A stretch of DNA of 32,589 nt, taken from the NCBI GenBank assembly GCA_947258885.1, contig CAMYKD010000096.1, positions 1-32,589 of the forward strand. The letters are read 5' to 3'. This stretch comes from an uncultured Kiloniellales bacterium (GTDB taxonomy: Bacteria; Pseudomonadota; Alphaproteobacteria; Kiloniellales; JAKSDN01). Every line of letters begins with the position of its first letter. Position 1 is the stretch's first letter. Positions 9,618 through 26,397 of the stretch are shown here, piece after piece. Made by a program: the position numbers and the translations under genes. Below the pieces are notes generated by a model. The model searched no databases. It was not told the DNA's origin and saw only the letters and a program-made list of their open reading frames with translations.

Positions 9618-9653
9618 TTAACATACGTTAAATAATATTAATTATTCGTTAAC
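9618..9653. promoter_or_regulatory. Phased TTAA array with a full CtrA box
   Basis: Four TTAA motifs start at 9618, 9628, 9638 and 9649, that is every 10-11 bases on one face of the helix. The last two form TTAATTATTCGTTAAC (9638-9653), an exact TTAA-N7-TTAAC CtrA recognition sequence. CtrA is the alphaproteobacterial cell-cycle/motility response regulator and directly controls the flp pilin gene pilA in Caulobacter. The Flp-pilin-like ORF starting at 9756 fits such control. Binding is inferred from sequence only. Confidence 0.65.
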
Positions 9654-14122: not shown

Positions 14123-14138
14123 TTAACCCGGCGTTAAC
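14123..14138. promoter_or_regulatory. CtrA box TTAA-N7-TTAAC
   Basis: TTAACCCGGCGTTAAC is an exact full CtrA site lying in the short gap between the hydrate-repair gene and the small gene at 14211. A box at this place would put a transcription start near 14160-14165 if CtrA activates, which suits the ATG at 14211 better than the upstream ATGs. Confidence 0.6.
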
Positions 14139-23996: not shown

Positions 23997-24270
23997 GTCA
24001 AGCCATCGATGATCGCGGATCGGATCGGAGCCGGAAAACGGCGATCAGGCCGGCGGGCGATGGCGCGTTCGGGTTTGCAGCAGGAACAATGATCGAACCG
24101 GCGTCTTGCCGGCGGTCCGGACCGGTATCAGAGATCATTGATATCGGCAGGCTTACTCCGGGAAATCGCTGTCAAGCCGCCACAGAGATCATCTCGATTC
24201 ATTATTAATCTTTTTGGAGTATCGTGAGCTCCAAGATCGCCCCGGAAATTGGCGCCTGGAAGGAGCGGCG
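23997..24270. other. Gap between tRNA-Val and the receiver-PilZ gene
   Basis: I see no gene, RNA or clear promoter here. An AT-rich patch (TTCATTATTAATCTTTTTGG, 24200-24219) precedes the downstream gene and contains one TTAA half-site but no full CtrA box. Confidence 0.4.
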
Positions 24271-24936
24271 ATGCGGGTTCTTTGTGTCGAGGACGATGTG
24301 ACGATGGCCAAGAATGTGGAGCTGATGTGCCACATGGCGGGGCACAGCTGCGACACGACCGGGCTGGGCGAGCAGGCGATTATGCTCGGCAAGACCAATG
24401 AATACGACATCATCGTCCTGGACATCATGTTGCCGGACATAGACGGCTATCAGGTCATAGGACGATTGCGGGCGGCGGGCGTGCAAACTCCGTTCCTGAT
24501 TCAATCTGGACTTGTGGATCGGGGCAACGAACTCGGAGAGGACGTGTTCCGGGGCAACGAGCACTTGGTCAAACCCTATACCAAGAACGAACTCATCGAC
24601 CGTATGCAGGCGGTCATCACCAGCCTGGAGAGCAAGCCCGCGGCGGTTCTGGACGATGACCTGAACGTCGCGGAGCCCCCCAGGCACGATGGCGTCGAGC
24701 GCAGGCAGCATCAGCGATTCGCCACGCTCAAGACCGGTGAAATAACCTACAAGAACGGAAAATCTCCAATCTCCTGCATTATCTTGAATCTTTCCTACGG
24801 CGGGGCGGAAATCAGGTTCTTGGATGCCGAATTCGACTGCCCGCCGGACTTTGCCCTGAAACTCCAAGCCGGACCGATCCAGAACTGCGAAGTCCGCTGG
24901 CGGCGTGGGGATAGGGTCGGTGTGCAGTTCGTCTGA
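24271..24936 (+). CDS. CtrA-like receiver domain fused to a PilZ domain
   Basis: This 221-residue, two-domain protein has a receiver at residues 1-118, MRVLCVEDDVTMAKNVELM, with acidic pocket Glu7-Asp8-Asp9, phospho-acceptor Asp51 in YDIIVLDIMLPDIDGYQV and Lys101 in HLVKPYTKNELIDRM. The wording (GLGEQAIMLGKTNEYDII, KPYTKNELI) closely parallels CtrA receivers, whose acceptor is also Asp51. A PilZ domain replaces the DNA-binding output at about 144-221, with RQHQR (145-149) and NLSYGG (173-178), the two c-di-GMP-contact motifs RxxxR and N/DxSxxG. The protein thus probably joins phosphorelay and c-di-GMP input; it lacks any DNA-binding part. The ATG at 24271 has AAGGAG five bases upstream, so the longer frame from 24214 is rejected. 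Its kinase is not in the window. Confidence 0.88.
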   Translation: MRVLCVEDDVTMAKNVELMCHMAGHSCDTTGLGEQAIMLGKTNEYDIIVLDIMLPDIDGYQVIGRLRAAGVQTPFLIQSGLVDRGNELGEDVFRGNEHLVKPYTKNELIDRMQAVITSLESKPAAVLDDDLNVAEPPRHDGVERRQHQRFATLKTGEITYKNGKSPISCIILNLSYGGAEIRFLDAEFDCPPDFALKLQAGPIQNCEVRWRRGDRVGVQFV

Positions 24937-25188: not shown

Positions 25189-25554
25189 ATGACAACAGGA
25201 GCAGATGACCCGGAGGAGACCGGGGCCCGGACGGAACCGCCCTCGGAGTTCGAGCCAGCCTCTTGGCTGGCCTGGGCCGAGCGTTGCGGTTATCGCATCT
25301 ATCTCTCCGGTGCCGCGAAAAAGGGCCCGTTTCGCATCGTCACCGAGCCTCCCCAGGGCCCGAGGGCGGCCGAAGACGTGGCCCTGTGGCATGCTTTCCA
25401 GGGGAGCCCGAAGCAAAGCAAGGTCAACCGGGCAGTCTTGATCGCATATCTCGTCAGGACGAATCGTTTCGGGCGGACCGGTTCCGACACCCCGCACGCG
25501 CCGAGGTCCAAGCCTTGTCGCTCAATCCAGAGGCGTCACATTCGACAAAATTGA
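25189..25554 (+). CDS. Hypothetical protein (121 residues)
   Basis: The ATG at 25189 has AAGAGG seven bases upstream; the open frame extends further up but without better start signals. The product, MTTGADDPEETGARTEPPSEFEPASWLAWAERCGYRIYLSGAAKKGPFRIVTEPPQGPRAAEDVALWHAFQG and on, has an acidic disordered N-terminus, a small predicted alpha/beta core (ASWLAWAERCGYRIYL, VNRAVLIAYLVRTN) and a basic disordered tail. No signal peptide or membrane segment is seen. I do not recognise the family. It converges with the PAS gene. Confidence 0.55.
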   Translation: MTTGADDPEETGARTEPPSEFEPASWLAWAERCGYRIYLSGAAKKGPFRIVTEPPQGPRAAEDVALWHAFQGSPKQSKVNRAVLIAYLVRTNRFGRTGSDTPHAPRSKPCRSIQRRHIRQN

Positions 25555-25783: not shown

Positions 25784-26266
25784 TCAGGCGCTTGGTTGGC
25801 CTTCTGCTGGCAGCACCTTGCAGCGGGCGCCGCCGACCAGAAGACCGACCGTGCCCCGACCGTCGGTCAGCGGCAGCAGGATGCTTCGATAGAGGTTGGC
25901 CCGGCCAAGATGGTCCCTGAACTCGCCACCATCGACGATCGGGTACCTCACCTTCAACACCTCCGCCACCAGGTGCAAGGCCCTGCCCAGAAGGGTATCC
26001 ACCGGAATGTCCGATACCACGAGACCCACGGTGGTCAGGCCGGAATCGGCCGCGATCATGTCGCCGACGTGAACGAAGGTCGCCTTGTCCGGATTGGGGG
26101 CCGGCACGATGGTGAAGCAATGCGGCCAGAGGTCGGCGACTGCGTCCGGGTCGAAGCGCTCGATCGGCGCATGCGATTCCGTGCCTCGCAGATCCTGCCA
26201 GTACGCCATCAGGCGCATATTGAGCCTGCGCTCGCTCACGCGCGGGTGATGATCCGCCGTCTCCAT
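25784..26266 (-). CDS. PAS domain-containing protein (PAS_5 type)
   Basis: The 160-residue single-domain protein METADHHPRVSERRLNMRLMAYWQDLRGTESHAPIERFDPDAVADLWPHCFTIVP matches the pattern of the alphaproteobacterial PAS_5 family (PF07310), in which a Y-W-x2-L-R-G-x-R/E-x3-P start is followed by D-P-x2-I/V-x2-L-x-P. Later strands FVHVGDMIAAD and SILLPLTDGRGTVGLLVGGARC complete the PAS core. Members lack output domains; roles are mostly unknown. A TTG start five codons upstream is possible, but ATG at 26266 is preferred; neither has a good ribosome-binding site. It is divergent from tRNA-Asp. Confidence 0.8.
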   Translation of the reverse strand: METADHHPRVSERRLNMRLMAYWQDLRGTESHAPIERFDPDAVADLWPHCFTIVPAPNPDKATFVHVGDMIAADSGLTTVGLVVSDIPVDTLLGRALHLVAEVLKVRYPIVDGGEFRDHLGRANLYRSILLPLTDGRGTVGLLVGGARCKVLPAEGQPSA

Positions 26267-26397
26267 TACGATTCTGCCCAAATATCCATGCTAAGCGGTT
26301 TCCGCTGCGGGGTGCGCGGGTCATACCTACATTATTTCCCACTTCACGCCTAGCCGGCTATGGGCTTTCCTTGCCTCGGGCTGCCGTCGTGGCCGGG

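Follow-up and report, generated by a model that had tools for sequence, protein, structure and literature searches.

A CtrA-related receiver joined to a PilZ domain: a family of candidate protein-interaction switches in one Kiloniellales-like order

CtrA is the transcription factor that ends the best-studied bacterial cell-cycle phosphorelay. The stretch of DNA analysed here (32,589 nucleotides from an uncultured Kiloniellales bacterium, hereafter the window) carries a gene whose product combines a CtrA-like receiver with a PilZ domain, and the questions that this locus raises are whether that receiver belongs to the CtrA lineage, whether the combination defines a family, and what such a protein might do in place of binding DNA. 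PilZ fusions with other receiver types are listed in response-regulator surveys. In the open-access literature, no description of a family of REC-PilZ or CtrA-like plus PilZ proteins was found.

The gene and its domains

The reading frame described in the earlier note was borne out to the base and is preceded by a Shine-Dalgarno-like AAGGAG (Table 1). A longer, TTG-started frame was considered as the gene start and is disfavored by the position of that element and by the homologues, which start at the same methionine as the ATG at 24271. Two Pfam matches account for the product, namely Response_reg (57.5 bits, residues 3-112, above cut-off) and PilZ (PF07238; 31.6 bits, residues 143-220, gathering cut-off 22.5); they are the sole matches, and Pfam identifies no DNA-binding domain in the 221 residues. 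The proposal that a PilZ domain bearing the two c-di-GMP motifs, RQHQR and NLSYGG, replaces the DNA-binding half thus stands, as does the reading of Asp51 and of the segment KPYTKNELI in the receiver. Together with D8/D9, S79 and K101, Asp51 completes the set by which phosphorylatable receivers are recognized (PF00072: acidic pair, phospho-Asp, Ser/Thr and Lys). The AlphaFold model of the protein, built from three sequences, has a mean pLDDT of 32, too low for a structural reading.

Table 1. Coordinates of the REC-PilZ gene and its features in the window
Feature	Position	Strand	Basis or remark
REC-PilZ response regulator gene	24271..24936	+	221 aa + stop; ORF, Pfam Response_reg + PilZ; start ATG 24271, stop TGA 24934-24936
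Shine-Dalgarno-like AAGGAG	24260..24265	+	6-11 bases 5' of ATG 24271 (sequence reading)
CtrA-type receiver domain, residues 1-118	24271..24624	+	NF045991, 113.7 bits; tree with CtrA; PDB 4qpj
Asp51, predicted phosphorylation site	24421..24423	+	39/39 family members
Ser79, the receiver's conserved Ser/Thr	24505..24507	+	directly after family-specific Gln78
Lys101, phosphate-site lysine	24571..24573	+	39/39 family members
Linker, residues 119-141	24625..24693	+	dN/dS 0.38 vs G001, 0.10 vs G002
PilZ domain, residues 142-221	24694..24933	+	Pfam PF07238; family-specific PilZ profile
PilZ motif 1, RQHQR (RxxxR), residues 145-149	24703..24717	+	
PilZ motif 2, NLSYGG ((D/N)xSxxG), residues 173-178	24787..24804	+	

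Two sister species (G001 and G002) carry, likewise behind lon-hupB-tRNA-Val, orthologues that are 95-97% identical to the window protein; relative to them the gene has an overall dN/dS of 0.09-0.10. Since same-locus orthologues exist in two species and dN/dS is about 0.1, this is a real gene and not a chance open reading frame. Taken separately, the domain ratios against these two species (0.06-0.07 for the receiver, 0.08-0.11 for PilZ) show that both domains are under purifying selection. Downstream of the gene lie a small frame without Pfam match (25189-25554, + strand) and, on the opposite strand (25784-26281, -), a frame for a PAS_5-family protein whose score of 23.0 bits is barely above cut-off.

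Affinity of the receiver to CtrA

Among NCBIfam receiver models, the best for the window protein is that of CtrA (NF045991, 113.7 bits over residues 1-126), with PmrA as runner-up at 62 bits, and the best PDB match to the receiver is that of Brucella CtrA (4qpj, E 2e-24). The score lies below the full-length cut-off of NF045991, set at 350 bits, whereas the true CtrA of the genome that carries the window (G000) reaches 429 bits. In a tree of 88 receivers, 39 REC-PilZ proteins and two stand-alone receivers form one clade (support 99/90), next to which stand two CtrA-like regulators and the 37 CtrAs, themselves a clade (88/78); the tree has 124 columns, too few to settle the branching within the REC-PilZ clade. 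The split between CtrA-type receivers, i.e., CtrA, CtrA-like and REC-PilZ, and OmpR-type receivers is supported at 100/91 when the OmpR-type outgroup also includes BasR and DrrD. On a profile of the whole CtrA receiver, the window protein scores 128 bits and the OmpR-type DrrD of Thermotoga 120 bits, so that REC-PilZ and DrrD are not separated. Because the dimer face dominates that profile, the comparison was redone on residues 1-84, where the window protein scores 111.7 bits, DrrD 67.6 bits and the non-CtrA regulators tested at most 74 bits.

By these criteria of sequence, the window receiver is a relative of CtrA that belongs to a sister clade, and it is not a CtrA orthologue. The notion that the window protein might be a CtrA proper was discarded, given its score below the 350-bit cut-off, the lack of a winged-helix domain, an incomplete set of dimer salt bridges, and its place in a separate clade. 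The CtrA-like character claimed in the earlier note is therefore upheld as regards the best-matching model and the grouping, and corrected as regards identity; likewise phylogeny, by which that kinship was to be checked, places the receiver with CtrA and against the OmpR types, but only as a sister clade. Separately, it was noticed that two genomes encode, besides CtrA, a divergent CtrA-like regulator of full length whose dimer face is intact (L076, G000:C5:43540-44205, 312 bits; L165, G040:C217).

The residues at the phosphorylation site are kept throughout, with Asp51, Lys101 and Ser or Thr at position 79 each present in 39 of 39 REC-PilZ proteins. Position 78, in contrast, is Gln in 35 of the 39, as opposed to Leu in all 37 CtrAs; further family-wide switches from CtrA are Gly36 to Ala, Ile39 to Leu and Gly40 to Ala, and the conserved Tyr43-Asp44 of CtrA is missing. 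The three salt-bridge pairs that we take to form the dimer interface (K87-E107, D97-R111 and D96-R118) occur together in all 37 CtrAs, whereas none of the 39 REC-PilZ proteins combines them; one of the pairs is left in the window protein. Conserved charged residues of the alpha4-beta5-alpha5 face mediate dimerization of OmpR-type regulators (PMC2586830), among them D96-R118 and E107-R111 in KdpE (PMC4773095). With no complete salt-bridge set in 39 proteins and both Asp51 and Lys101 in all of them, the family has retained its site of phosphorylation but not the surface for dimerization. On the alpha4-beta5-alpha5 face, the family is less CtrA-like than unrelated OmpR regulators are (p about 0.0001, a descriptive value, the rows being related). 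One paralogue of G000 (C25; L067:3669-4334, -) has E7-N8-N9 where the acidic pair would stand and keeps Asp51 and Lys101; its metal binding may be altered.

The alpha1 face, which docks ChpT, is more CtrA-like in REC-PilZ proteins than in OmpR regulators (p about 0.0001, again descriptive for related rows), a likeness that may reflect ancestry alone. CtrA contacts ChpT through D9, A11, S15, L18 and M19 (PMC9981736). Three of these five positions are kept in the window protein (D9, L18 and M19), A11 being replaced by T and S15 by N. Another part of the receiver in contact with ChpT, the beta4-alpha4 loop, is changed to the family-specific QSGLVDR.

The earlier note had also tied two CtrA boxes in the window to the putative system. 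The boxes are real: two exact matches to TTAA-N7-TTAA, of which none is expected by chance, lie at 9638-9652, about 0.4 kb upstream of a Sel1-repeat gene (10048), and at 14123-14137, directly after a NAD(P)HX repair gene and ahead of a pyruvate-dehydrogenase-like gene. Their tie to the REC-PilZ gene, however, is not supported. Both boxes are about 10-15 kb away from it, and none stands upstream of it, so that they suggest at most that CtrA regulates other genes. Within the 300 bp upstream of the REC-PilZ gene, the best candidate box has two mismatches and is equalled in 33% of shuffles, and control of the gene by CtrA through upstream boxes was accordingly rejected. A few relatives have a box with 0-1 mismatch upstream (in G004_C30, 0 mismatches at about 265 bases); the pattern is not shared.

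A multicopy family and its genomic contexts

The survey of relatives for the same fusion, which the earlier note had proposed, used the window protein against 58 related genomes and a profile of seven paralogues against 61 genomes of the order. It revealed ten REC-PilZ paralogues in G000 (the window copy and those on contigs C68, C25, C18, C24, C5, C77, C3, C114 and C45), with a complement that looks alike in its two congeners, and at least 39 sequenced REC-PilZ proteins in three families of one Kiloniellales-like order. The other carriers are G004 (five copies, counting C3b), G005 and G006 in family f1, G007 and G021 in f2, and nine genomes of f7; no REC-PilZ protein was found in families f3, f4, f5, f6 and f8 of the order. 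Across 385 genomes of the class, searched for the best few candidates per genome, a setting at which uncommon or strongly diverged members may have escaped, full-length matches came from G000 only, and the other matches listed end near residues 124-143, i.e., within the CtrA receiver. Among the matches listed from plasmid and phage collections, there were CtrA or other receivers only and no REC-PilZ protein of the window type. Stand-alone receivers of the REC-PilZ clade, with the QSGLV signature and without PilZ, were seen in two f7 genomes (L163:887-1249, G027_C171; L164:2691-3056, G040_C45). REC-PilZ is a real family, apparently undescribed within the open-access literature and the searches made. 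The earlier note mentions neither its tenfold expansion nor the erosion of the OmpR-type dimer face, and it also lacks the fusion to bactofilin and the linkage to type II secretion that are described below.

On a PilZ profile specific to the family, the 39 REC-PilZ proteins score at least 65 bits (11 of the 39 went into the profile), against at most 39 bits for the remaining PilZ domains of G000 and 46-72 bits for PilZ proteins found outside G000; the five of the latter that were read have no receiver. The family's PilZ domains thus fall into a single score class, for which one fusion followed by duplication is the most economical account. Receiver and PilZ were probably joined a single time, within one order of Alphaproteobacteria, and later expansion gave the ten copies of G000. 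The canonical PilZ motifs are present in most members, RxxxR being lost in G000_C3, and the window PilZ domain is predicted to bind c-di-GMP. Searching the PDB with phmmer gave no match for the PilZ part of the window protein, and the PilZ profile gave a sole match, the PilZ domain of BcsA, at an E value of 0.04 that is too weak for a structural argument.

The surroundings of the paralogues point to candidate outputs. In seven of the nine f7 genomes, the REC-PilZ gene lies within or beside a type II secretion operon (L157, G031:C17, 1692-12584; L155, L158, L159, L161, L162 and L147), and in the clearest cases it is inverted between the pseudopilin genes and gspL. In six f7 genomes, a T2SSG match shares the contig with the REC-PilZ gene and is no more than a few kb from it, and the operon of G031 was confirmed by Pfam, its GspE bearing an MshEN domain. 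MshEN domains bind c-di-GMP. In the remaining two f7 genomes, the REC-PilZ gene adjoins that of a MucR-type regulator. A 423-residue protein in which REC-PilZ is joined to bactofilin, a polymer-forming cytoskeletal domain, is encoded in two species (L068:2590-3858, -, in G000:C18, E 8e-13; orthologue L139:3868-5136, +, E 7e-15). No kinase or shared output gene was recognized beside the REC-PilZ copies of G000, nor a kinase gene beside the other copies examined, when the predicted frames were judged by eye.

Other copies depart from the compact architecture. In proteins of 875 residues (L073, G000:C114:16874-19498) and 1052 residues (L144, G001:C266), receiver and PilZ are set far apart, by more than 600 residues in the G000 protein, and this linker is rich in Pro, Glu, Asp and Ala, repeat-like, and variable in length between species. 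The degenerate-PilZ copy L072:5056-7322 (G000:C3) is located near a gene for a CcrM-type adenine methylase (N6_N4_Mtase + RAMA), with apparent dsbA and smc genes close by.

Possible modes of action and comparison with known systems

REC-PilZ proteins are most likely protein-interaction switches that respond to phosphorylation and to c-di-GMP. The best explanation, which we consider somewhat probable, is that a receiver of the CtrA lineage and a PilZ domain act together, phosphorylation by the ChpT relay or a related one and c-di-GMP jointly gating a protein partner and not DNA. In this view, the receiver split off from the CtrA lineage and acquired PilZ, the winged helix that binds DNA being lost as its output; Asp51 would be phosphorylated through the CckA-ChpT relay or by a related phosphotransfer partner, PilZ would bind c-di-GMP, and the two signals together would gate binding to the partner. 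Different paralogues might relay the combined signal to different machines, such as type II secretion in f7 and the bactofilin cytoskeleton for one paralogue of G000. This genome encodes CtrA and one clear ChpT, and has seven GGDEF matches. Transfer of phosphate from ChpT/CckA to the window receiver, as put forward in the earlier note, is plausible, and the competition with CtrA for phosphate that it envisaged would follow if ChpT were the donor of REC-PilZ. More tentatively, the family might go back to a duplicated CtrA receiver and let the CckA-ChpT relay fan out, with one phosphotransferase serving many c-di-GMP-gated effectors of direct action on secretion, bactofilin and other machines in parallel to transcriptional CtrA.

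Alternatively, the receiver could have left the ChpT relay and be phosphorylated by an unlinked orphan or hybrid histidine kinase, its resemblance to CtrA reflecting ancestry and its output being protein interaction through PilZ, a reading that we lean against without finding it far-fetched. It would account for the variation of contact positions 11 and 15 among paralogues and for the changed beta4-alpha4 loop, it accords with the insulation of partners that usually accompanies paralogue expansion, and G000 has many further receiver-bearing proteins; on the other hand, no kinase gene was recognized next to the copies examined, and the alpha1 face is still nearer to that of CtrA than are the alpha1 faces of other OmpR regulators. 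It is improbable that the receiver is a docking scaffold whose phosphorylation is irrelevant, with c-di-GMP alone gating the protein as in Caulobacter Cle. Although the Cle proteins show such a mode in an alphaproteobacterium (PMC5677366), and the C25 paralogue lacks the acidic pair, the retention of Asp51, Ser/Thr79 and Lys101 in all 39 proteins and the low dN/dS of the receiver would be unexpected for a pure scaffold.

Two further readings seem less attractive. Ten CtrA-type receivers per cell could load the relay, and in Rhodobacter the receiver-like Osp inhibits CckA directly (PMC9430884), so the protein might serve as a sink or competitor that drains phosphate from ChpT and lowers CtrA~P, with PilZ merely tuning stability or localization; yet varied linkers and outputs would be superfluous in a sink, and the bactofilin fusion, the linker of more than 600 residues and the operon-specific placement make this quite unlikely. 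That a generic OmpR-type receiver was joined to PilZ, its resemblance to CtrA being coincidental, would fit the close whole-receiver scores of DrrD and the window protein, but is very improbable in view of their separation on residues 1-84 and of the 100/91 split in the tree. If the preferred reading of a phosphorylation- and c-di-GMP-gated interaction switch holds, CtrA-lineage receivers that drive c-di-GMP-type, non-DNA outputs and are expanded tenfold would be a natural experiment on relay branching, and would inform on receiver specificity after duplication and on the integration of phosphorelay and second messenger at protein level. With ten paralogues, one clear ChpT and CtrA in one genome, the question lends itself to direct tests.

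Compared with CtrA of the CckA-ChpT-CtrA relay (NF045991), REC-PilZ proteins have a sister receiver in which Asp51, the acidic pair, Ser79 and Lys101 are the same and the alpha1 docking helix is partly preserved; they differ from it in having no DNA-binding domain, in never combining the three dimer salt bridges, in the Gln that replaces Leu78, and in the loss of Tyr43-Asp44. With the c-di-GMP receptors YcgR, MapZ and PlzA (PF07238), they share a PilZ domain with RxxxR and (D/N)xSxxG, but a phosphorylatable CtrA-type receiver stands where those receptors have an enzyme, another PilZ-like domain or no partner at all. Like the Cle proteins of Caulobacter, they are a paralogous receiver set in an alphaproteobacterium with C-terminal c-di-GMP binding, predicted from motifs in REC-PilZ, whereas the receivers of Cle resemble CheY, and c-di-GMP is bound there by a short tandem peptide, [YF]xGP[DE][RK]R, and not by PilZ (PMC5677366). 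Cle activation is independent of phosphorylation (PMC5677366), and the tandem motif is absent from the 221-residue window sequence read by eye. The two stand-alone receivers of the REC-PilZ clade recall Osp of Rhodobacter (PMC9430884), CpdR and DivK, receiver-only proteins that act in the CckA/ChpT/CtrA circuit. Osp, CpdR and DivK, unlike REC-PilZ, have no PilZ domain. To our knowledge, none of the three has been assigned to the receiver clade of CtrA. Finally, PopA and PleD of Caulobacter, in which receivers are combined with GGDEF, likewise join receiver and c-di-GMP biology around the control of CtrA (PMC10333796 and general knowledge); their output is a GGDEF or degenerate GGDEF domain, where that of the REC-PilZ proteins is PilZ.
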